Of a DNA stretch of 64,000 nucleotides, positions 1,797-56,962 are shown piece after piece. Each line of letters starts with the position of its first letter. The stretch's first letter is position 1. The notes under the pieces were generated by a model. The model was not told the DNA's origin. It saw only the letters and a program-made list of their open reading frames with translations, and ran no database searches. Made by a program: the position numbers and the translations under genes. Origin of the DNA: Ariolimax columbianus (lineage: Eukaryota; Mollusca; Gastropoda; Stylommatophora; Arionidae); contig JAVGWX010000008.1 of assembly GCA_036924085.1 (NCBI GenBank), positions 52,535,314 to 52,599,313 on the forward strand, given 5' to 3'.

Positions 1797-2560
1797 CAGT
1801 GGAAGTTGATATAGGACTCCTAGAGATCAGAGACACGTGTAGATATGAGACCAGTGGAGGTAGATATAGGACCTGGAGACATGGGACACGTGTAGATATG
1901 ATAGCAGTGGAGGTAAATATAGGACCTGGAGATATGATACACGTTTAGATATGATAGCAGTGGAGGTAAATATAGGACTTGGAGACATGATACACGTTTA
2001 GATATGATAGCAGTGGAGGTAAATATAGGACCTGGAGACATGGGACACGTGTAAATATGAGACCAGTGGAGGTAGATATAGGACCTGGAGACATTCGACA
2101 CATGTAGATATGAGACCAGTGGAGGTAGATATAGGACCTGGAGATATTCGACACATGTAGATATGACACCAGTGGAGGTAGATATAGGACTTGGAGACAT
2201 GGGACACGTGTAAATATGAGACCAGTGGAGGTAGATATAGGACCTGGAGACATTCGACACATGTAGATATGAGACCAGTGGAGGTAGATATAGGACCTGG
2301 AACATTCGACACATGTAGATATGAGACCAGTGGAGGTAGATATAGGACCTGGAGACAAGGGATATATGTAGATATGAGACCAGTGGAGGTAGATATAGGA
2401 CCTGGAGACAAGGGATATATGTAGATATGAGACTAGTGGAGGTAGATATAGGACCTGGAGACAAGGGATGTATGTAGATATAAGACTAGTGGAGGTAGAT
2501 ATAGGACCTGGAGACAAGGGATGTATGTAGATATAAGACTAGTGGAGGTAGATATAGGAC
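1797..2560. repeat. 53-bp tandem array, about 14 units
   Basis: The unit contains GACCAGTGGAGGTAGATATA and GGACCTGGAGACA. Higher-order variants alternate between GGGACACGTG, TTCGACACATG and AGGGATATATG. Units at the right edge change to AAGACTAGTGG. The long - strand ORFs across it are artefacts of the repeat. Confidence 0.93.
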
Positions 2561-3300
2561 GCCTGAAGATCATGAACGCGCGAACACCTGGGACGCCTAA
2601 CGATCTTGAACATGGAGACTTGAGAGTTGATTATACCTGAGACTCCGGGGGATTTAGCACCCGTGGAGACCTCACGTGAACACCTTTGGTGGGAACTGTA
2701 GAGACCTGGAACTCGTCAAGACGTGGGACTCGCGGAGACACAAGACACTTGGAGATTTCGGATAGGTGAAGGCATCGTGGAACTCGTGGACATCTGTGTT
2801 GGGACTATGGATGCCTGGGACTAGTAGATACATGGGATCCGTGGAGACCTCATGTGGAACAAGTGGACGCCATCTCTTGGGACCTGTGGAAACTTTATCT
2901 AAGAACTGTGTAGACGTGCAATCCGTGGAGACCTCACTTGGAACAAGTGGGGGCCATCTCTTGGGACCTGTGGAAACTTTATCTAAGAACTGTGTAGACG
3001 TGCAATCCGTGGAGACCTCACTTGGAACAAGTGGGGGCCATCTCTTGGGACCTGTGGAAACTTTATCTAAGAACTGTGTAGATTTGCGAACCGTGGAGAC
3101 CTCATGTGGTACAAGTGGAGGCCATCTCTTGGGACCTGTGGAAACTTGATCTAAGAACTGTTTAGACTTGCGATACATGGATACGGTGAACATGTAGAGA
3201 CATGGGACCCGGCAGATCTGGCATATATAACACATGGCACGCGAGGTGGTCTAGGCCCAGTATGGACATTTTTCAGAATCAATTGAGACCTATGCCAGTG
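2560..3300. repeat. GAGACC satellite with an 84-bp sub-array
   Basis: Degenerate GAGACC words continue here. Inside, four copies of an 84-bp unit (about 2,839-3,175) contain CATCTCTTGGGACCTGTGG and TCTAAGAACTGT. The unit length is a multiple of three, which keeps ORFs open on both strands without implying a gene. Confidence 0.85.
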
Positions 3301-3359
3301 GGGACATTACGTGTAATAGGTTATGAGAATCCTTGACCAGTCCTGCCATGACGATCAAA

Positions 3360-3612
3360 TAACTTTTTTTTCTTCATTTGCTGACCTAATGTTGTCTAGA
3401 TCAAATGGGTGTTTCATCTTCGCCTTTCCTAATGTTGATGTCTAGATAAATTAGTTGTTTAATCTTCTCCTGATCTAATGTTGCTATCTAGGTCAAATAG
3501 CTGTTTCTTCTTCTACTGATCTAATGTTGCTATGTAGGTCAAATAGCTGTTTTATCTTCTCCTGACGTAATGTTGCTATCTAGGTCAAATAGCTGTTTCT
3601 TCTTGTTTATTT
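3360..3612. repeat. Imperfect 50-58 bp tandem repeat
   Basis: About five diverged units contain TCTAATGTTGCTATCTAGG and TCAAATAGCTGTTT. The following 3,612-4,160 is T-rich unique sequence in which I see no gene. Confidence 0.75.
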
Positions 3613-4164
3613 TATTCACTCCATATTCTGGATATATCTACGATGTATCTGACCTTTTTCAAGAAGCCGACATGAAAGCACTTATGAACGCTTGTAGCAG
3701 CTATTTCTGTTGCAATTCATGATTCAATGAAGTGGTTGAAAGCCCCATTCACAATCCCCTTTTGTCGATTTTTACGTCACGTTTAGAAGGTAACAGTGAC
3801 TGACATCTTTCGTCCTCAGGTACAACTCGGCTGAACCGTATGTGTGTTGTGTTATTATTACACTTAGTCCAAGCTCCTATCACCATATTCATGTTGTCGT
3901 CATCTTTTTGTTCTTGTTCATGTTCTCTTTCTTATTCTTGTTCTTGTTCTTCTTCCTTTTTTCTGTTTTGCATTCTTATTTTTCTTTCTCATTTGCTTGA
4001 AAATATAATGTATGTGTCTGCAATGTTGTTTCTTGCATAATCTTAATGGTCTTTTGTAGCTCACATACAGGTTCATCAAGTTTTTTTTTCCAGTAGGTTT
4101 TTTGCTCAGTTTATCATATTCGCGGCAGCTTTGTGGTATGTGCTCTGCACTCTGGGATGCCTGT

Positions 4165-6436: not shown

Positions 6437-6670
6437 AGCCGCGTAGCGCAGTGGTTAGCGCGCTTGCTTCGCATCTGAGTGGTCCTGGGTTCATTTCCCA
6501 GTTGAGGCGGTAATGTTTCTTTCAGACCGCAATGGATCCCGGGTCGACCCAGCCTTAAACGGGTACCGGTTCAGTCCGAGAGGTAAAAGCGGCGAGGGAG
6601 AGGAAATGGCTACCGCCCTCATATAGCCGAGTCTTTGAAATGTGAGATCGCTAGCACTTCACACTACTAC
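6437..6670 (+). mobile_element. tRNA-derived SINE
   Basis: The head resembles a tRNA: an A-box-like TAGCGCAGTGGTTAGCG, and a B-box-like GGGTTCATTTCC about 50 bp later. The body then runs through GGATCCCGGGTCGACCC. It is too degenerate to be a working tRNA. 6,670-7,040 has nothing recognisable. Confidence 0.65.
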
Positions 6671-10845: not shown

Positions 10846-11422
10846 GAACCTACGAAAGAGCAGCACTCTGCAAACTGTGCCAGCAGACCGCACCAAAAAG
10901 GGTAGTGGTACAGTGGGTTCCGTCACACTGCAACATCCAAGGCAACGAGGAGGCAGACAGACTGGCAAAAGAAGGTGCAAGACTACCACAAACAGATACC
11001 AGTATGACGTACGAAGAGTCAAAACGGCTTATCAAAGCCAGATACATGACCAAATGGGAAACCGAACATACTGGTTACACCAAAAACGATGCCTATTACC
11101 AGTTGAACCGAAGAGAGCAGGTCGTTGTCTTCAGACTTCGCACTGGCCACAACAGACTGAGGTACCACCTATTCAACAAATTGAAGATAGGGTGTACCGA
11201 CGAATGCCCGTGCGGTACTGGTAAAATGACCACTGAACATCTGCTGCAAAACTGCCCGACATACGAGGATCAGAGAGAGCAGATGTGGCCATTACCAGTG
11301 GAACTGCAAGACAAGCTCTATGGCAGTGGCGAGAGCCTTAGGATGACCGCCGCTTTTTTCGAAAAAATAATGGTTACTGTCTGACTGTGTACGCAGAAGA
11401 AGAAGAAGAAGAACCTACGAAA
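10846..11422 (+). mobile_element. 5'-truncated LINE copy with (GAA)n tail and 12-bp TSD
   Basis: The body 10,858-11,410 is a nearly identical copy of the 3' end of the large - strand LINE at 28.2-32.1 kb. It encodes the end of RNase H (QWVPSHCNIQGNEEADRLAK) and the Cys/His tail CPCGTGKMTTEHLLQNC. The stop codon is followed by only about a dozen bases before (GAA)n. GAACCTACGAAA occurs exactly at both edges (10,846-10,857 and 11,411-11,422), showing a standard target-primed insertion with 5' truncation. The 204-residue ORF here starts in flanking DNA and is not a gene of its own. The close match suggests a young insertion. Confidence 0.93.
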
Positions 11423-27950: not shown

Positions 27951-28220
27951 ATCCTTACCAAATATATCGCTGGCAAAATTAATTATGGCATCATCGTCTA
28001 CGATGAACGGCGGAATTTACCTTTTTTTTTTAAAATAAATACCTGTGTTGTCCATGTTTCAGAGCTATGTAATAGAACAGATCTTACGTTATTTATAACA
28101 CGCACGCACGCACACACACACATATATATACATACATACCTTTGTCTCTTCTCATTTTCCCACTTTCCTTGTTTTTCTTAATCCTTTTAATATTTACTTC
28201 TTCTTCTTCTGCGTACACAG

Positions 28221-29525
28221 TCAGACAGTAACCATTATTTTTTCGAAAAAAGCGGCGGTCATCCTGAGGCTCTCGCCACTCCCATAGAGCTTGTCTTGCA
28301 GTTCCACTGGTAATGGCCACATCTGCTCTCTCTGATCCTCGTATGTCGGGCAGTTCTGCAGCAGATGTTCAGTGGTCATTTTACCAGTACCGCACGGGCA
28401 TTCGTCGGTACACCCTATCTTCAATTTGTTGAATAGGTGGTACCTCAGTCTGTTGTGGCCAGTGCGAAGTCTGAAGACAACGACCTGCTCTCTTCGGTTC
28501 AACTGGTAATAGGCATCGTTTTTGGTGTAACCAGTATGTTCGGTTTCCCATTTGGTCATGTATATGGCTTTGATAAGCCGTTTTGACTCTTCGTACGTCA
28601 TAATAGTATCTGTTTGTGGTAGTCTTGCACCTTCTTTTGCCAGTCTGTCTGCCTCCTCGTTGCCTTGGATGTTGCAGTGTGACGGAACCCACTGTACCAC
28701 TACCCTTTTTGGTGCGGACTGCTGGCACAGTTTGCAGAGTGCTGCTCTTAAGTCATTAAGCTCAGTGTTTTTCTGGCTTTTTAGCGCTGTGACTACGGCG
28801 AGAGCATCTGTCAGCAGGACTATATGGCTCTCATTTTCACTGTGTGTCACCATTTCTTCCACTGCCGCCCTCAGTGCCTCTGCCTCCGCTCTGAAATTGC
28901 TTGTGAACTTACCAGTAGCGAATGACAGTGTTATTTTTCTGCCATTTGGTAGGTTCAGGAATGCTCCTGCCCCTCCGTTCTGTGTAGTGTTTGTTACAGA
29001 ACCGTCGGTGTATGCATGGGTCCAGTCCATGCTTGGGTAGCTTTTCGTTATGAAGCTTAGGGTAGTGTCTCTCCTTTCTTTTTCAGTCTGGCAGTTTTTG
29101 TTTGCAATACCTGGTATATTTTCTACCACCTCTGGAAATATATCCTGCCTCCAGGTAGGTTTTCGTACAGTAGTGATGGGTTTTGGTGTTGTTAGTGTGT
29201 TTATGGGATTTTCGTGCATCTTTGCTTTGGCTATTTCTGCAAAGTTTCTCCGCTTTAGTGTCCCATTTCCCAAATTGTTTAGTCTCTGGTACATTGGATG
29301 GTCCGTCAGTCTTCGGAGTTTCTCTGACTGCAGCTGGGCTCTGCAGTCTCTTCTATCGGTCATGGATTGCAGTTTTGAAATCTTTTCAAGTTCTACAATT
29401 GGCGTTGACTTCATGCCACCTGTTATAATTCTCATGGCTTGGTTTTGAAGTTTGTTAACTTTATCGAAGTTCGCCTTCGCTGCTGTTGTCCATGCCGCTA
29501 TGCCATACTCGAGAACTGGTCTCAC
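28221..29525 (-). CDS. LINE ORF2, C-terminal part: RNase H and Cys/His tail
   Basis: This 434-codon stretch is the downstream part of the polymerase ORF, separated from the EN-RT part by a one-base frameshift. It starts with the end of the RT region (RPVLEYGIAAWTTAAKANFD). An RNase H domain follows at about residues 165-290: YTDGSVTNTTQNGGAGAF (first catalytic Asp), FRAEAEALRAAVEEM (Glu), HIVLLTDALAVVTAL (Asp) and QWVPSHCNIQGNEEADRLAK (His and last Asp), so all expected catalytic positions are present. After it come RREQVVVFRLRTGHNRL and a Cys/His motif, CPCGTGKMTTEHLLQNC. RNase H in an APE-type LINE is typical of I-like and some Jockey-group elements. The stop is followed by only about 10 bases before (GAA)n. 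The Met used as a start is probably an internal residue. Confidence 0.9.
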   Translation of the reverse strand: MRPVLEYGIAAWTTAAKANFDKVNKLQNQAMRIITGGMKSTPIVELEKISKLQSMTDRRDCRAQLQSEKLRRLTDHPMYQRLNNLGNGTLKRRNFAEIAKAKMHENPINTLTTPKPITTVRKPTWRQDIFPEVVENIPGIANKNCQTEKERRDTTLSFITKSYPSMDWTHAYTDGSVTNTTQNGGAGAFLNLPNGRKITLSFATGKFTSNFRAEAEALRAAVEEMVTHSENESHIVLLTDALAVVTALKSQKNTELNDLRAALCKLCQQSAPKRVVVQWVPSHCNIQGNEEADRLAKEGARLPQTDTIMTYEESKRLIKAIYMTKWETEHTGYTKNDAYYQLNRREQVVVFRLRTGHNRLRYHLFNKLKIGCTDECPCGTGKMTTEHLLQNCPTYEDQREQMWPLPVELQDKLYGSGESLRMTAAFFEKIMVTV

Positions 29526-32125
29526 TCTTCCAGTGTACAGTTTAGTATGCCTTCGTCTGCTCCCCAGCTTGTGCCAGCAAGTTTCCTCATGATTGCCATT
29601 CTTTCTCTGGCTTTCATTCGGTTTCTCTCAATCTGACTTTTCCATGTCATGCGCCGATCAAATGTGACTCCCAGATAGGTTGGGTTGTCGTTTGGCTGCA
29701 GGATTTTGCCATTTAGACTTAATTTGGTACTTTGGGGTTTTAATGAAAGCGAGAATATTGTGCATGTGGTTTTCTCCTCGTTTATTTTGAGCAGCCATGA
29801 GTTCGCCCACTCTTCCAGCGATGTTAGGGCCGTCTGCATCCGATTTCTTGCTATGGTGAGATTCTTTTCAGAGGTCCACATAGCCAGATCGTCTGCAAAC
29901 ATTGAGCTATGGACTCTTCTTGGTATATTCTCTGTAATATCGTTTATATATACCAGGAAGAGTGTGGGTGACAATACTACCCCTTGGGGTACTCCCTGCT
30001 CGAGTGTTACCTTTTTGCTCATCTGCCCTTGTACTTGGACTCTGGCCGTTCTTTGTTTGAGGTAGTGGTTGATCCACTTGTACATTCTCCCACCGACATC
30101 ACTTCTTCTTAGCTTTACTCTAAGTCCATCTTTCCAGACTTTGTCAAATGCCTTTTCCAGATCCACCCAAACAGCTACTGTGTGTTTCTGTGCCTGGTAG
30201 GCATCTTCTATCTCTTGGGCTATGAGGATGACCTGGTCCTCAGTGGATCTGTGCTGTCTAAAGCCGGCTTGCTGTGGAATTAGTATTCGTTTTTCTTCCA
30301 GATGCCACATCAGTCTGGTGTTTATCATCCGTTCCATCAGCTTGCCGACACAGCTCAGTAGGCTTATGGGCCTGTATCCATTTGGATCTGTTTTGTCCTT
30401 TCCTGTTTTTGGTACTGGTACCAGTATTGCATCTTTCCATGCCTGTGGTACAATTCCCCTTTTCCAGCTTTGGTTCAGAACCGATAGCAGTTTCTCCTTC
30501 GCTGTTTGGCCCAGCGCCATCAGCATTTCGTTTGTTATCCCGTCTTTTCCGGGAGATTTCCTTTTCTTTAGTGTTCTCATAGCCTCTTCCATTTCGCGCA
30601 TTGTTAGTTTGGCCATCATGTGCTCTTCAGGAGCCGTATTCATGTTTTCGTGTCCCTTTAGTTCTTCGCTAATGTCTGTATGCTTATCTGCAGGGACCTC
30701 GATGTGGTTTGCTCTGGCATAGTGATCGACAAAGGCGTTTGCGGCTTTCTTACCTGTGATCAAGTTCTCGCCCTGCTTGATAGTAATTTGTTTATTTGAC
30801 GGGGTTTCGTCGTTCATGGCTCTGACTAGCTTCCATAGCTTGTTCCCGTCTTTGTCCAGGTTTAGACTTTCTGTTTTATTTTTCCAGCTTTCTCTTGCTG
30901 TTTGCTTGAGAGTGTGTTTGTACTTCGCCGCGGCGGCTTTGAGGGCGATGTTTGCCTCCATGGATTTTTCTCGCTCTGCCATGTTCCTAGCATTTGTTAC
31001 TGCATCTTCCACTTTCTGCAACTCATCATTCCAGTAGGGCTTATAGTTTTTCCTAGCTCCTCTTGGGATGGTTTCAGTGGCGGCCTGCATTATTGCCTTG
31101 CTTAGGCTCTCTACCATGTGCTTCATTTTGGTGTTTCGTGTGTTGATGGTTTCACACAGCCCATCTGTCAGGATTGCAAATCTGTCCCAGTCGGCTCGTT
31201 TGTAATTCCAACGTGGGAGCGGTTTTGTTTCCTGTGGGCCTACTTCCACGTCAATGGTTAGCCTGATCGGCCTGTGGTCGCTACCTGCCAGTTGGTTTAG
31301 CACCTGGCGGTCTATTTTATGGTGTATGTCCTGTGTGGAGAAGGCCAAATCTGGAGTCGAGGTGGTATGCCATGTTCTTGAATAGAAGCTAGGGCTATCC
31401 TCCGGCCTATTGATTAGGGAGAGATTTGCATCTATCTCCCAATCTTCCACTTCGTCACCTCTGCTGTCTGTGTCAGAGTATCCCCATCTCTCCGAGTGGC
31501 TGTTGAAATCTCCAACTACTATGCAGTTGGAGTCTCTGACCTCCATACTCGAGAGCGAAAGGTCTCTGTTTGGTGGTCCGTACAGATTGAAAATGCGGAG
31601 CTTCGTCTCTTTAGCCATTATGTCAACTCCTACAATTTCTGCTTGTCCGGTGTGATTGACAGATACCGCGCTACTCGGTATACAGTTTCTGGTCAGTATC
31701 AGGACCCCTCCTTTGTGGCCTTCTCTATCTAGACGGAAGGTCTGATGTCCTCTGATTGAGAATTTATGGTTATTGTTGAGGTGCGTTTCCTGGATACATG
31801 CCACGTCAATTTTACCTTCATGCAAGTGGTGTGTTAGGGAAAGTTTTTTGTTAATGACTCCCTCCGCATTCCACTGTAGTATTTTGAGGGTCTTGAGGTT
31901 TTGGCCAATAGAAGTTGCCCCATAGCCATGTGCCTTGACTCCACGACACATGGGTGGGTGACCACCAGTAGTCAATGGTGGGCCCCTTCGAGGCGCGAGG
32001 CCCGGCCCTATCGCTGCCTGGCGGGACTCCGCAGGATGAGCGCCATGCGTTTTTCTAATAGGTTGTACTGCCATCATACTGTGATTTACGTTGCACTGTT
32101 TTGTTAGGCTTGCGGTCCCGTGCAT
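29522..32125 (-). CDS. LINE ORF2, N-terminal part: AP endonuclease and reverse transcriptase
   Basis: 867 codons. A short basic and proline-rich N-terminus precedes an AP-like endonuclease at about residues 84-300: LKILQWNAEGV (metal-binding Asn), CIQETHL (Glu), VVGDFNSHS (Asp-x-Asn), and SDHRPI (final Asp-His). The reverse transcriptase follows at about 530-800: GYRPISLLSCVGKLMERM, QAGFRQHRSTEDQ, VWVDLEKAFDKVW (catalytic Asp), GVPQGVVLSPTLFLVYINDI, MFADDLAMW (catalytic Asp pair) and YLGVTFDRRMTW. All catalytic residues I can check are intact, so the only lesion is the frameshift near 29,530-29,545 that ends this ORF and leads to the RNase H ORF. That indicates a recent loss. The ATG at 32,125 lies in sequence similar to the SINE core, so the true start is uncertain. 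No ORF1 with zinc knuckles precedes it. Confidence 0.9.
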   Translation of the reverse strand: MHGTASLTKQCNVNHSMMAVQPIRKTHGAHPAESRQAAIGPGLAPRRGPPLTTGGHPPMCRGVKAHGYGATSIGQNLKTLKILQWNAEGVINKKLSLTHHLHEGKIDVACIQETHLNNNHKFSIRGHQTFRLDREGHKGGVLILTRNCIPSSAVSVNHTGQAEIVGVDIMAKETKLRIFNLYGPPNRDLSLSSMEVRDSNCIVVGDFNSHSERWGYSDTDSRGDEVEDWEIDANLSLINRPEDSPSFYSRTWHTTSTPDLAFSTQDIHHKIDRQVLNQLAGSDHRPIRLTIDVEVGPQETKPLPRWNYKRADWDRFAILTDGLCETINTRNTKMKHMVESLSKAIMQAATETIPRGARKNYKPYWNDELQKVEDAVTNARNMAEREKSMEANIALKAAAAKYKHTLKQTARESWKNKTESLNLDKDGNKLWKLVRAMNDETPSNKQITIKQGENLITGKKAANAFVDHYARANHIEVPADKHTDISEELKGHENMNTAPEEHMMAKLTMREMEEAMRTLKKRKSPGKDGITNEMLMALGQTAKEKLLSVLNQSWKRGIVPQAWKDAILVPVPKTGKDKTDPNGYRPISLLSCVGKLMERMINTRLMWHLEEKRILIPQQAGFRQHRSTEDQVILIAQEIEDAYQAQKHTVAVWVDLEKAFDKVWKDGLRVKLRRSDVGGRMYKWINHYLKQRTARVQVQGQMSKKVTLEQGVPQGVVLSPTLFLVYINDITENIPRRVHSSMFADDLAMWTSEKNLTIARNRMQTALTSLEEWANSWLLKINEEKTTCTIFSLSLKPQSTKLSLNGKILQPNDNPTYLGVTFDRRMTWKSQIERNRMKARERMAIMRKLAGTSWGADEGILNCTLEE

Positions 32126-32647
32126 CCGATTTCAATAGGCGTTTCTCTAGGGATGCCCTCCTTAGCCTTTGGCTGTCCCCAGCCTATCTGCAAGGCAGCA
32201 GTTGTTTATGATCAGAGTTTTCTCTCTTATGGAAGTTGTCTTACCAGACTATCGAGTCTTCACTACTCGTGTCTGTAGGGTGCAATGATGATATGTGATG
32301 ATATATGAGATGGACTGGTTTACCCGGAAGAGAGGCAGTCCAGTGTGTCTGTATCCCAGGATCGTCACGTCCTGCCAGAAACGTAGCATTTGCATGTGAG
32401 TGGGGTATCTCTTTTTCCCTTTATTTTCTTGGCTTCTATGCAGGGATGGTACGCCTAGCATTCCCCGCCACCTGGGGTGTTGACACAGTGGGGCAGGTGT
32501 GCAATGTCCGCTGGTCTGCATCTCTTCTGCGTCCAGTATGATAGTTATATGGCTGATAACGTACAGAGGTAGATATCGTAGCCGGAGTGCATTCAGCCAG
32601 AGGACAAGCCTGGTAATGTCACAGAGATGTTGTTCGCCTGATGTGCG
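32126..32647 (-). other. LINE leader between 28S and ORF2, no ORF1
   Basis: About 520 bp from the end of the 28S match to the first ATG of ORF2. A 136-residue ORF (32,249-32,659) crosses it but starts inside 28S-like sequence and has no Cys/His knuckles, coiled coil or other ORF1 hallmark. Its 3' part (GATAGGCTG, GGCTAAGGAGGGCATC, GAAATCGGATGCACGGGACC) resembles the GGACCGAAAGG SINE in the same order. Some of it could instead be rDNA 3' external spacer. Confidence 0.6.
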
Positions 32648-33160
32648 GACAACTCTCACGGTCAGTGGTTGAGTCTTGACAGTTCACAGTGAGGTGGCTG
32701 CTCTACTGTTTTCGACACCCCGACCAGGTACTAAGTCTTTGGTTGGTGTTTTCGCACCCCATCGCCGTATAGGGTGAGTATCAAGCAGTTGTCCGCCCGC
32801 TTTGATTGGCGGACGGCAAGGACCTCTTACTGTGGCTCTACCTGATAGGGCTGGGGCGCAAGCCCCAGGTCCCGAGCATGTAGGAGCCTCCCATTGCAGT
32901 GGTGCTGATATTTTGGGCGGCATTGCGGCTTACAAGGGTTCGGCCGTAATCCCCCACATAGTAGCCTCGCGCCCTTGGCTTATCAGCCTGGTACGTGAAC
33001 CAAAGTGTCTGCGGCTCCTCTCGATTTGAGCTGGTTTTCCGTAGCAACGCCCTGTCATTTGTAGGGTAAAACTGACCTGTCTTCAGATGATCTATTTCCA
33101 GCACCCGTTCACTATTTGATCAGACGAATTTATTGAGGGCTTTTGTTTGTCAATGACCAG
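32648..33160 (-). pseudogene. Diverged 28S rRNA 3' end
   Basis: Read on the - strand this follows the end of eukaryotic 28S: ATAGTGAACGGGTGCTGGAA, GACAGGTCAGTTTTACCCTA, a sarcin-ricin-like TCAAATCGAGAGGAGCCGCAG, GCTACTATGTGGGGGATTA, TAAGCCGCAATGCCGCCC, and the last helix GTAGAGCAGCCACCTCACTG through GAGAGTTGTC at 32,648. Compared from memory with typical animal 28S it is roughly 75% identical, far below what a working gene would show. It stops at what would be the mature 3' terminus. ORFs of 79-88 codons across it are shadows of the rRNA sequence. Confidence 0.82.
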
Positions 33161-33704
33161 GTATTTGAAATCTGCGGTTTCTGCGGAGTTAAACACGATT
33201 TCCGTAGAGTTCTTTCATTTGAGTGTTTGAGAGCTGACTTGTCATCCGTGAGTCTAATACCAGCGTACGTTCATTATTAGACCCAAACGGCAGTGCTCTC
33301 GATTTGTCAGTTGTTCTACAGTATTGGCGTGTTCAGTCAAATTAAGCCGCAGGTTCCACACCTGGTGGTGCCCTTCCGTCAATTCCCTTAGCAAGACAAT
33401 CAAGTTTCTTATAGGGTAGCCCCAGGTTTTCGAGGGTCTAATTCCAGCACATGTTCTCTATTAGACCCCACGAAGGTGTACTTTTTGATAGTCATTCTGC
33501 AGTATTGGCGTGTTAAGTAAATTTAGGTCTCAGGCTCCACACCTGATAGTGCTCTTCCGTCAATTCCTTTTTCAGAACACTGGATGCAGACCAAATCGGG
33601 CCACAGGGGGCATAACCCCAGATTTCTAGGGGTCTAAATCCAGCACCAGTTCCATATTAGACCCCAGAAGAGTGGTCTCGGCATGTCAATCATGTCAGTG
33701 TTGG
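33161..33704 (-). repeat. Tandem mosaic of short 28S and 18S rRNA segments
   Basis: Three units of about 170-200 bp, each joining a 28S piece from just past the A-loop (GGGTCTAATA...GAAC...GCTGG...TTAGACC...CCTA) to an 18S piece (GGAATTGACGGAAGGGCACC through TTTGACTCAACAC). The 18S pieces are at about 33,327-33,393, 33,508-33,572 and, continuous with the long 18S, 33,705-33,770. The 28S pieces form 9-10 bp inverted repeats at 33,250/33,275, 33,434/33,460 and 33,629/33,657. Units differ by about 10-25%. The segment 33,161-33,245 may be more diverged 28S, but I am not sure. Confidence 0.8.
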
Positions 33705-33728
33705 CCGTGTTGAGTCAAATTAAGCCGC

Positions 33729-33777
<49 letters not shown>

Positions 33778-34931
33778 TTTGCAACCATACTTCCCCCGGA
33801 ACCCAAACACTTTGGTTTCCCGGAAGCTGCCCGCAGAGTCATCGAAGCAACTCCTGCGGATCGCTAGTCGGCATCGTTAATGGTCAGAACTACGACGGTA
33901 TCTGATCGTCTTCGCGCCTCTGACTTTCGTTCTTGATTAATGAAAACATTCTTGACAAATGCTTTCGCAGTAGCTCGTCTTGCGGCGATCCAAGAATTTC
34001 ACCTCTAACGCCGCAATACGAATGCCCCCGTTTGTCCCTGTTAATCATTACCTCCAGTTCCGAAAACCAACAAAATAGAACCGAGGTCCTATTCCATTAT
34101 TCCATGCACCATTATGCAGGCAGCCGATGCCTGCTTTAAACACTCTAATTTTTTCAAAGTAAACGCGCCGGCCACCCAGGACGCTCAGCGAAGAGCACCC
34201 GTGGGAGAGAGCCGGCAGACGGTAGGGCAGGAGACAACGGGCAGTGAACCGGCGCGAGCCGGACCGCCCGCCTGCGCCTGAGATCCAACTACGAGCTTTT
34301 TAACTGCAACAACTTTAATATACGCTATTGGAGCTGGAATTACCGCGGCTGCTTGCCCTCCAATAGATCCTCGTTAAAGGGTTTAAAGTGTACTCATTCC
34401 AATTACGGGGCCTCGAAAGAGTCCCGTATTGTTATTTTTCGTCACTACCTCCCCGTGCCGGGAGTGGGTAAGTTGCACGCCTGCTGCCTTCCTTGGATGT
34501 GGTAGCCGTTTCTCATGCTCCCTCTCCGGAATCGAACCCTGATTCCCCGTTACCCGTTACAAACATGGTAGGCATGTCACGTACCATCGACATTTGATAG
34601 GGCAGACATTTGAAAGATGCGTCGCCGGCACATGAGGCCATGCGATCAGCACAAAGTTATCCAGAGTCACCAGTGGGGACGCCGCAACCCCGCGAGGGGA
34701 AACGATGATTGGTTTTGAACTAATAAAAGCGCTCTTTCCGCGAGGGTCGGAGCTTGGTAAGCATGTATTAGCTCTAGAATTGCCACAGTTATCCAAGTAG
34801 GATCGTGTCATCTAAGGAACCTCGACTGATTTAATGAGCCATTCGCGGTTTCACCGTGAGACAGTGTGAACTTAGACATGCATGGCTTAATCTTTGAGAC
34901 AAGCATATGACTACTGGCAGGATCAACCAGA
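33705..34931 (-). rRNA. Partial 18S rRNA (5' two-thirds), pseudogene
   Basis: Starts at 34,931 with CTGGTTGATCCTGCCAGTAG, the universal 18S 5' end, and runs in register through ATTACCGCGGCTGC (as its complement), the variable V4 region, ACTTTGGTTTCC and GGAATTGACGGAAGG. It breaks off after TTGACTCAACACGG. The normal sequence would continue for about 600 bases more. An 11-base deletion at 34,353/34,354 removes GGTGCC and neighbours from the 530 loop, one of the most conserved parts of the small subunit. The molecule could therefore not work in a ribosome even if complete. Confidence 0.95.
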
Positions 34932-35571
34932 TATCTGTCGGAGACGTACGTACAGCACACACCGGTCGGCGGAGGAAGGGTGTGTTAAAAAGCCTCGCTG
35001 GGACGACGGCCGCAGGGACCGACTGACGGGACGGACGGACGGTTTGTTCCACCCGTCTCTCACTCCGTCGACCTAGGACCGCCTGACAGGGGCCTCCCAC
35101 ACGCACCAGACGACCGACCGACCGGGCTCGCTCGAGGAGGGATGGCAGCGCTCTGTGCAGAACGGATCCCAACGACCTCGGCGATGAATTTTACTGGAAC
35201 TGGAGACAATTTGGCCTGCCGGCCTGCCCTTCTCCGTAGGAGAACGCAGGGCCTCGAGGCAACGATTCCTGCTTTCCATTTGCCGGTCACAAGCTCTTTG
35301 CGAGAGTCGGACCACCAGCGAGACGTACTGTCGAGCTCTGCTATAAGCCTTAGATAAATCACCAAGGACGGACCACGTTTCCTGATACGGACCAGACCAG
35401 CGCACCTCGGTGGAGGAGCCACTACAACAAACCGCACCCAATTCGCACTTCGGGGAAAGGCAGGCGAGCGTTTTCCGCAAGCCCGCGCTATCGCTCCGCC
35501 TGGCAGGACTGAGATCGCTTTACGAACACTGGTTGAAATTGAGTCGCTGCGGCGAGACAACTACCCCAGAT
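34932..35571 (-). other. GC-rich 5' external-transcribed-spacer-like segment
   Basis: Directly upstream of the 18S start, about 640 bp of GC-rich sequence with GACG and GACC simplicity (ACGGACGGAC words near 35,027) stops sharply at AT-rich DNA at the TSD. By position it should be the rDNA 5' ETS. ETS diverges too fast for me to confirm by recall. The ORFs of 113-166 codons across it reflect GC content. Confidence 0.65.
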
Positions 35572-35584
35572 CTTTTAATATTTA

Positions 35585-36262: not shown

Positions 36263-36720
36263 AACGTAGGTTTTCTTCTTCTTCTTCGTACGTTGTCAGA
36301 CATCAACTTGAATTTGTTCGAAGAAAGCAGTAATTCTGAGGCTGTCGACACTGCCATAGAGCTTGTCTAGTGTTTGCATTGGTGATGGCCACATGTGCTT
36401 TCTCTGGTCCTCGTATGTCGGGCAATTTTGCAGCAGATGTTCAGCGGTCATATCCCCTGTACCACAGGTGCATTCGTCAGTAGCACCTATCTTCAGTTTA
36501 TTGAATAGATGATACCTCATTATGTTGTGGCCTGTGCGGAGTCTGAAGACCACGACCTGCTCTCTTCTGTTCAACTGGTAATAAGCATCCTTTTTTTGTG
36601 AAGCCAGTATGCTCTGTTTCTCATTTGGCCATGTATCTGGCGATAATAAACCTTTTGGACTCTTCGTAGGTCACACTAGAATCTAGTTGTGGTAACCTTG
36701 CACTTTCTCAACGTATGTTT
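36263..36720 (-). mobile_element. 5'-truncated (GAA)n-tail LINE copy, subfamily B
   Basis: The body 36,274-36,709 encodes the Cys/His tail (NRREQVVVFRLRTGHNIMRY, TCGTGDMTAEHLLQNCPTYE) with a frameshift upstream. The (GAA)n tail is at the left edge. AACGTAGGTTT (36,263-36,273) and AACGTATGTTT (36,710-36,720) form an 11-bp TSD with one mismatch. It shares diagnostic changes with the 48.7 and 56.6 kb copies and not with the 28 kb element. Confidence 0.87.
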
Positions 36721-48683: not shown

Positions 48684-48715
<32 letters not shown>

Positions 48716-48902
48716 GCTGTCGGGCGTCAACTTGAATTCGATCGAAGGAAGCAGCGGTCATCCCGAGGCTGTCGACACTGCCATAGAGCTTGTCTAGTGT
48801 TGGCACTGGTGATGGCCACATGTACTTTCTCTGGTCCTCGTATGTTGGGAGATGTTGCAGCAGATGTTCAGCGGTCATTTTCCCTGTACTATGACGATTT
48901 GA
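48673..48902 (-). mobile_element. 5'-truncated (GAA)n-tail LINE copy, subfamily B
   Basis: After (TTC)n at 48,683-48,712, the body up to about 48,890 matches the last 190 bp of the LINE, including the Cys/His tail remnant TAEHLLQHLPTYEDQRKYMW. ATGACTATTT on the left and ATGACGATTT on the right form a 10-bp TSD with one mismatch. Confidence 0.8.
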
Positions 48903-56526: not shown

Positions 56527-56962
56527 GAAGTGGTGAGAACAACTAGATCCTAGTGTGACATACGAAGAGTCAAAAAGGCTTATTAGAGCTAGATACATGA
56601 TCAAATGAGAAACAGAACATAATGGCTACATAAAAAAACGATGCCTATTGCCAGTTGAACAGAAGAGAGCAGGTCGTGGTCTTCAGACTTCGCACAGGCC
56701 ACAATAGACTGAGGTACCACCTATTCAATAAATTGAAGATAGGTGGCACTGACGAATGCACGTGCGGTACCGGGAAAATGACCGCTGAACATTTGCTGCA
56801 AAACTGCCCGACATACGAGGATCAGAAAAAGCAGATGTGGCCATCATAAGTGGCAACACTAGACAAGCTCTATGGCAGTGTCGACAGCCTCAGGATAACC
56901 GCTGCTTTTTTCGAAAAAAATAAAGGTTTACGTCTGACAGCGTACGAAGAAGAAGAAGGGAG

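Follow-up and report, generated by a model that had tools for sequence, protein, structure and literature searches.

The question raised by this locus is how a LINE came to carry ribosomal precursor sequence at its 5' end, and whether that head is an accident of one insertion or a property of the element. In the window, i.e. the whole stretch of 64,000 nucleotides from Ariolimax columbianus that was analysed, the insertion is a single minus-strand unit of 7,375 bp (28197-35571) between exact 13-bp duplications, with its parts following each other 5' to 3' as ETS, 18S, mosaic, 28S-like segment, leader, EN/RT/RNase H and (GAA)n. The duplicated CTTTTAATATTTA stands at 28184-28196 and 35572-35584, has no third plus-strand occurrence in the window, and adjoins the (GAA)n tail (CTTCTTCTTC on the plus strand) on one side and the 5' edge on the other. 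The parts are as follows.

28184-28196, no strand: target-site duplication, left copy CTTTTAATATTTA, exact match to the right copy
28197-28209, minus strand: 3' end, (GAA)n tail, common to other copies
28221-29525, minus strand: C-terminal ORF portion, which includes RNase H (PF00075, 1.9e-17)
29522-32125, minus strand: N-terminal part of the same ORF, with APE-type endonuclease and reverse transcriptase (Pfam)
32126-32650, minus strand: leader, no recognised homologue in the Rfam scan
32651-33118, minus strand: diverged 28S 3'-end-like segment (Rfam to 33053, extended to 33118 by eye)
33119-33704, minus strand: mosaic in which diverged 18S-like and 28S-like pieces are repeated in tandem every 162-197 bp or so
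33705-34930, minus strand: 18S nt 1 to about 1,237, numbered from CTGGTTGATCC, close to host 18S
34931-35571, minus strand: 5'ETS, by rDNA comparison, beginning with ATCTGGGG (5' edge, putative pre-rRNA +1) and extending to the start of the 18S
35572-35584, no strand: target-site duplication, right copy, exact match to the left copy

This anatomy bears out a sequence-only reading of the same DNA, according to which ETS, 18S, 28S and LINE parts lie in one orientation within a single insertion and the LINE was inserted as one molecule together with about 2.9 kb of ETS/18S/28S-derived DNA, as the 13-bp target-site duplication bounds the whole. The identity of the ETS is confirmed by comparison of 33705-35571 with a genomic rDNA unit from the unit's putative start (97.7% over 1,881 columns). 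SSU_rRNA_eukarya matches 33797-34930 on the minus strand with 898 bits (model 4-1116), and 33768-33795 continues the match to 1145 (Rfam); an 11-nt deletion near 34352 was seen in no other copy, L022 being without that place owing to a larger deletion. At 33704/33705, the canonical 18S-to-leader junction of this copy, the 18S gives way to the mosaic, a tandem array in which an 18S-like piece occurs three times and a second piece, called 28S-like by eye, four times at a spacing of 162-197 bp. The LSU_rRNA_eukarya match covers 32651-33053 on the minus strand (61.9 bits, model 3005-3399 of 3401).

As for the protein, Pfam identifies an EN-RT polyprotein in the window copy (RVT_1 7.5e-40, Exo_endo_phos_2 1.3e-18, RNase_H 1.9e-17), in which the RNase H part is frameshifted from the EN/RT part near 29522-29525 and lies in a second frame, and a stop-to-stop frame of at least 1,301 aa is present in eight of 20 aligned copies. 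Target-site duplications, a 3' repeat tail and frequent 5' truncation (13,192 exact 3' ends versus 4,210 junctions) are hallmarks of a LINE, and the single ORF with RNase H resembles Ingi-like elements, the I/Ingi-type clade being a possible placement. The snail Littorina saxatilis is the only organism named among 120 listed of 262 protein relatives of the ORF. The host 18S lacks the sequence of a cephalopod 18S primer which, according to PMC8074623, does not suit octopods. R2 elements have a restriction-like endonuclease; here, Pfam gives an APE-type endonuclease in its place. Nor is there insertion at a fixed rDNA site, as in R-type LINEs, among the 20 fetched copies, which lie on chromosomes with differing flanks. 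With 7.4 kb and an ORF, the element is likewise no rRNA-headed SINE of the short, non-autonomous kind. The leader holds a frame of 136 aa, with an early stop, seen by eye, in the diverged locus L033, an old single copy.

A young family with a common 5' end

When the genome (2.29 Gb) was searched with window 31500-33500, the 40 scored of 4,018 candidates all showed 98-100% identity. Twenty matched places were fetched with 10 kb each, and the alignment comprised 20 copies including that of the window, all selected by similarity to the window copy, after L018, which carries an inversion, had been dropped. At separate loci, 14 of these 20 start at the exact same base, ATCTGGGG, and have ETS and 18S in common; among them, L013 and L022 show internal deletions in the 18S. 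Ten of the 14 5'-complete copies have exact target-site duplications of 10-13 bp detected by script, and three (L011, L014 and L015) have imperfect ones recognised by eye, which leaves L023 as the one copy without an assigned duplication. Divergence from the consensus is 0-1.7% per segment among the aligned copies, which, together with the frames of at least 1,301 aa in eight of 20 copies, argues for a young family.

Genome-wide copy numbers were obtained as exact 31-mer matches, by which mutated copies are missed. They amount to 13,192 for the 3' end, 4,210 for the 18S-to-leader junction and, with rDNA included, 4,785 for the ETS/18S boundary. Starts fall into two types. The LINE-type 31-mer has 1,750 matches, of which at least six lie behind an rDNA promoter on rDNA contigs and about 1,744 are dispersed; the rDNA-type 31-mer has 396, of which we estimate about 111 to be rDNA and about 285 dispersed, assuming that 19 unlisted promoter matches are rDNA and that all but six such units are of the rDNA type (100 of the 396 were listed, all 100 on C1-C5). 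Altogether this gives about 2,030 dispersed 5' ends by exact 31-mers. On C1:0-50.6 Mb, an exact junction at the canonical distance follows 26 of 37 LINE-type and three of five rDNA-type starts, as well as 50 of 99 ETS/18S boundaries; the others in each set may have mutated, deleted or different junctions.

That the unit recurs at many loci with an identical 5' end answers in the affirmative whether other long copies carry 18S upstream, and it overturns the part of the sequence-only reading that took the insertion for an individual LINE-rRNA chimera. The rRNA head is a trait of the whole family (14 of 20 aligned copies). A unique chimera made at the window locus, although compatible with a single insertion and an exact duplication, is thus ruled out, and a one-off template-switch product would have a unique junction, whereas 4,210 exact canonical junctions were counted. 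An artefact of assembly or annotation, which might be considered as rDNA and young repeats are difficult to assemble, can be dismissed with the same near-certainty, as 13 of the 14 complete copies possess target-site duplications of their own (10 exact, three imperfect) and exact matches number in the thousands genome-wide.

Three minor observations concern the copies themselves. 5' truncations cluster just below the junction, and the query favoured copies reaching about there. In L018 (3352-8984), a 3' end segment is inverted at the 5' side, as in twin priming. The young copy L009 (48-8496) is flanked on either side by parts of one older 18S stretch (88% identity) and thus represents an insertion into an old relative.

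The 5' end and the putative start of the pre-rRNA

Units of rDNA were located with a 24-mer from the 18S 3' end, which has 32 matches, eight on small contigs with rDNA and 24 dispersed. In all eight of the rDNA units read across this stretch, the LINE 5' end falls between TGTATATT and ATCTGGGG, 612 or 638 bp before the 18S, at a promoter-like site (TATATT/ATCTGGGG). Because of this promoter-like sequence and the 14 uniform LINE ends, we infer that the Pol I +1 is at ATCTGGGG. The LINE head would accordingly correspond to pre-rRNA from the Pol I start through the whole 5'ETS to 18S nt ~1,237, without the upstream promoter. The rDNA sequence upstream of +1 is absent from the window flank and from the 30-nt flanks of the examined copies, which weakens the earlier suggestion that the head may carry a Pol I promoter, since the head begins at the putative +1; a promoter element downstream of +1 and nucleolar targeting would be conceivable. 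A 28-mer of promoter plus start has 119 genome matches, and among the 100 listed in contig order 98 are on small contigs and two on chromosomes. The latter two, C10:58993498 and C12:62836865, are possible dispersed copies with an upstream rDNA promoter. All data are DNA from one species; 11 rDNA units were read over the ETS, three of them over 390 bp, and part of the fetched rDNA consists of N.

One could imagine that the family springs from a master resident in rDNA, namely a LINE located in some rDNA units near 18S nt 1,237 and co-transcribed from the rDNA promoter as ETS-18S-LINE, of which the dispersed copies would be full-length copies and in which concerted evolution of the rDNA would keep the 18S pristine. 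Such an origin would account for the 14 complete copies that begin at the putative +1 without the upstream promoter, for the mere two chromosomal matches among the 100 listed for promoter plus start, and for the overlap of ETS classes with rDNA classes described below. On contig C86, moreover, one promoter-to-promoter interval (86561-118499) exceeds the length of two units by about 7,370 bp, which corresponds to a full LINE, and this extra sequence is a possible LINE. However, no LINE was seen in the rDNA read, the extra sequence of C86 lying outside of it, and none of seven odd promoter-to-promoter intervals compared by hand fits a 5.5-kb headless LINE plus whole units. In addition, the canonical junction lies inside homology to neighbouring 18S, which a resident master does not require. 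We therefore regard it as unlikely, at around one chance in five.

Inheritance and possible renewal of the head

Beyond what is directly observed (the anatomy, the common 5' end, the copy numbers, the rDNA match at a promoter-like site and several other junctions), the reading that we prefer, with a rough probability of just under 0.6, is that the LINE family has a heritable head of pre-rRNA, which would have been acquired, and at times renewed, by template switching of the reverse transcriptase onto pre-rRNA. The carrier in this reading is a young, very numerous LINE family of the APE type with a single, RNase H-bearing ORF, and its head is followed by a decayed leader of older 18S/28S origin and by the ORF. 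The enzyme would jump from the LINE RNA to pre-rRNA in the course of target-primed reverse transcription and copy this pre-rRNA to its 5' end. Jumps in the 18S-like repeats, where LINE and pre-rRNA resemble each other, would create or renew the canonical head, which would then pass on with the LINE, and jumps outside of these repeats would yield one-off chimeras. Through renewal, the 18S part would stay the same as host 18S, in contrast to a decaying 28S-like part.

Junctions of the latter kind were found among the 24 dispersed loci with an 18S 3' end, eight of which were examined with DNA: seven are LINE chimeras and one, L029, is a short fragment. Each of the seven chimeras has its own junction of 18S-ITS1 with the LINE, located near consensus 1915 (L031), 2458 (L034), 1903 (L035), 1768 (L036), 1864 (L030), 2566 (L033) and 6112 (L032); L032 also contains 5.8S, and L031 the start of 5.8S and a piece of 28S. 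As all seven include ITS1, the partner was unprocessed pre-rRNA. Four of the seven (L030, L032, L033 and L036) involve LINE copies only 80-87% like the window family, from which we conclude that the joining process is old and recurrent in the clade.

The 18S part of the inherited unit is pristine in that LINE copies and eight rDNA units show no fixed difference over consensus 641-1815. Singletons, which we take as mostly post-insertion mutations, are as frequent in it as elsewhere (per kb-copy: 18S 3.95, ETS 3.91, ORF 3.82, leader 3.93, 28S-like 5.02, mosaic 6.02), and almost no variants appear to be inherited despite this ordinary mutation. Among the 15 copies with ETS, variants present in at least two copies number one in the 18S (1,237 sites), eight in the ETS (640), four in the mosaic (588), seven in the 28S-like segment (465), two in the leader (526) and 35 in the ORF (3,909). 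The deficit of the 18S is significant against mosaic, 28S-like segment, leader and ORF combined (Fisher, p=0.003), but against the three neighbouring segments mosaic, 28S-like and leader alone the value is only p=0.04, which weakens the case for renewal, as do the selection of the copies by similarity to the window copy and the reading of a single rDNA-type copy. The 28S-like segment scores 61.9 bits in the window, 62.7 in L034 and 67.9 in L035, and 78.5, 91.5 and 103.2 bits in L030, L033 and L036, the LINE parts of which are 80-87% like the window family (Rfam); this is as expected if the 28S-like part decays without renewal.

It could also be argued that the head was captured once, long ago, and has since descended vertically, its 18S being held by selection as the LINE RNA needs it, e.g. 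for nucleolar residence, ribosome contact or translation. Most starts indeed represent one LINE-type ETS lineage unseen in the 11 rDNA units read, and an 18S without inherited variants but with singletons at the rate of other segments is what such selection would leave. Yet copies exist that combine the canonical junction with the present-day rDNA ETS, the LINE lineages are not followed by ETS haplotypes, and the older-clade locus L036 shows two differences in 110 nt to host 18S beside a mosaic 81-87% like that of the window family. We consider a single capture improbable, marginally more so than a resident master.

The ETS evidence in question comes from several sources. Haplotypes at 125/148/151/174 do not track LINE lineages in the 15 copies with ETS: L026 and L027 have seven variants in common (1894 to 3669) but differ in ETS haplotype, and so do L022 and L025 with five common variants (2754 to 4014). 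L020 has the rDNA form at 527/564-566/575, and L023 carries an exact 25-nt ETS deletion plus 370C that are also found in three rDNA units, although this deletion could be recurrent. LINE-type alleles at 125/146/148/151/174, in turn, occur in none of the 11 rDNA units read. When a query of present rDNA ETS and 18S followed by the LINE mosaic was used, the 40 scored of 3,435 candidates all spanned it from 1-13 to 2423-2463. Fifteen of the 40 come from that part of C1-C5 over which rDNA-type starts are listed in full, and 11 of the 15 have an exact rDNA-type start. One of the 11, C4:114718325, is identical to present rDNA at 180 of 180 positions of ETS 100-279 (n=1), and the LINE consensus has five differences there. 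Behind the same canonical junction there is hence more than one ETS class. All 13 matches without net indel end at query 2423 and all seven matches of 2,443 bp at 2461, which look like two sub-lineages; as ETS length class goes with the end of the LINE match, captures would have founded sub-lineages.

Most heads nevertheless look inherited and not recaptured per insertion, because LINE-type starts dominate and their ETS alleles occur in 0 of 11 rDNA units. Recapture at every insertion fails as a general rule for the same two reasons and because ETS class tracks LINE class among the matches to the rDNA-ETS query. It also proved incorrect to regard 21C/24A as specific to the LINE, as both stand behind the rDNA promoter in six rDNA units, three of which were read and show other differences; 21C/24A is probably ancestral. 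The units of this ETS class lie on contig C86 (11812-62054) and at C236:60620, and those on C86 are spaced 12.5-12.6 kb, compared to mostly 12.15-12.29 kb, with a few near 12.65, elsewhere. At C2:16476748 and C2:16477494, two rDNA-type starts lie 746 bp apart on the same strand, perhaps as a tandem head.

Further points weigh against the preferred reading. The about 1,744 dispersed LINE-type starts far exceed the about 285 of the rDNA type, and homology at the canonical junction also fits gene conversion, switching being deduced from sequence. A more far-reaching version of the preferred reading, which we put forward tentatively and to which we assign about one chance in three, is that the family lives off Pol I. 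Lacking a promoter of its own ahead of +1, the family would have its RNA meet pre-rRNA in the nucleolus, where the RT would renew a worn 5' end by homology-guided switching onto nascent pre-rRNA, and each renewed sub-lineage would receive a fresh, current head. The 5' end of the element, at which Pol I would begin transcription in this version, coincides with the promoter-like rDNA site. If this version holds true, the dispersed copies would be dated fossils of past rDNA alleles.

Relation to known elements

The nearest published counterpart that we found are human LINE-1/28S rRNA chimeras, known from 18 loci with 50-482 nt of 28S (median 269), mostly as sense rRNA at the 5' end, for which RNA ligation or template switching is given as the cause (Law and Burns, 2026, PMC13174262). 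They share with the slug family the position of rRNA at the 5' end of a LINE insertion. The text of that paper contains "18S" zero times; the slug family, in contrast, inherits about 1.87 kb of pre-rRNA from the putative +1 onwards. SINEs with 5S or 28S rRNA heads are short and non-autonomous (PMC3272025; also PMC13174262). Their rRNA head is similarly heritable through fusion to a LINE-type tail, but the carrier here codes for EN, RT and RNase H, and its head consists of Pol I pre-rRNA with the ETS. R2, one of the rDNA-specific LINEs, inserts site-specifically in 28S, is transcribed together with 28S and carries a ribozyme at its 5' end (PMC3414825; PMC3774820; PMC5035012), and a dependence on the rDNA transcript would be a parallel (PMC3414825; PMC3774820). 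Unlike R2, the family inserts at dispersed sites, uses an APE-type endonuclease and keeps the rRNA inside the element. LINE-1 lineages are known to replace their 5'UTR and to keep amplifying, with a new 5'UTR that is not known to be host pre-rRNA. The slug LINE likewise appears to have swapped its 5' end and continued to amplify, the difference being that the new 5' end is host pre-rRNA.

Our searches of the open-access PMC literature listed no counterpart to a LINE family with a heritable pre-rRNA head. The published LINE-rRNA fusions that we found are rare single loci, whereas here a fusion has turned, or keeps turning, into the inherited 5' part of a LINE family whose recent copies number in the thousands. 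This makes it testable how a LINE comes by another 5' end and promoter, whether its reverse transcription takes place beside nascent pre-rRNA, and how new elements are built by template switching. In addition, former ETS sequences, which concerted evolution erases from the rDNA, may be preserved in the dispersed copies, and thousands of near-genuine 18S fragments have a bearing on rDNA assembly, on estimates of copy number and on barcoding with 18S.

The window itself contains further traces of the clade. A 5'-truncated 3' end of the young LINE family lies at 10856-11408 (99.5% to the consensus over 553 bp), and older 3' ends of the same LINE clade are present at 36273-36708, 48696-48889 and 56539-56958 (78-87% identity). 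At 6438-6509, ARAGORN reports a tRNA-Ala-like gene with anticodon cgc, the Rfam score of which is just above threshold and which may be a tRNA-derived repeat.
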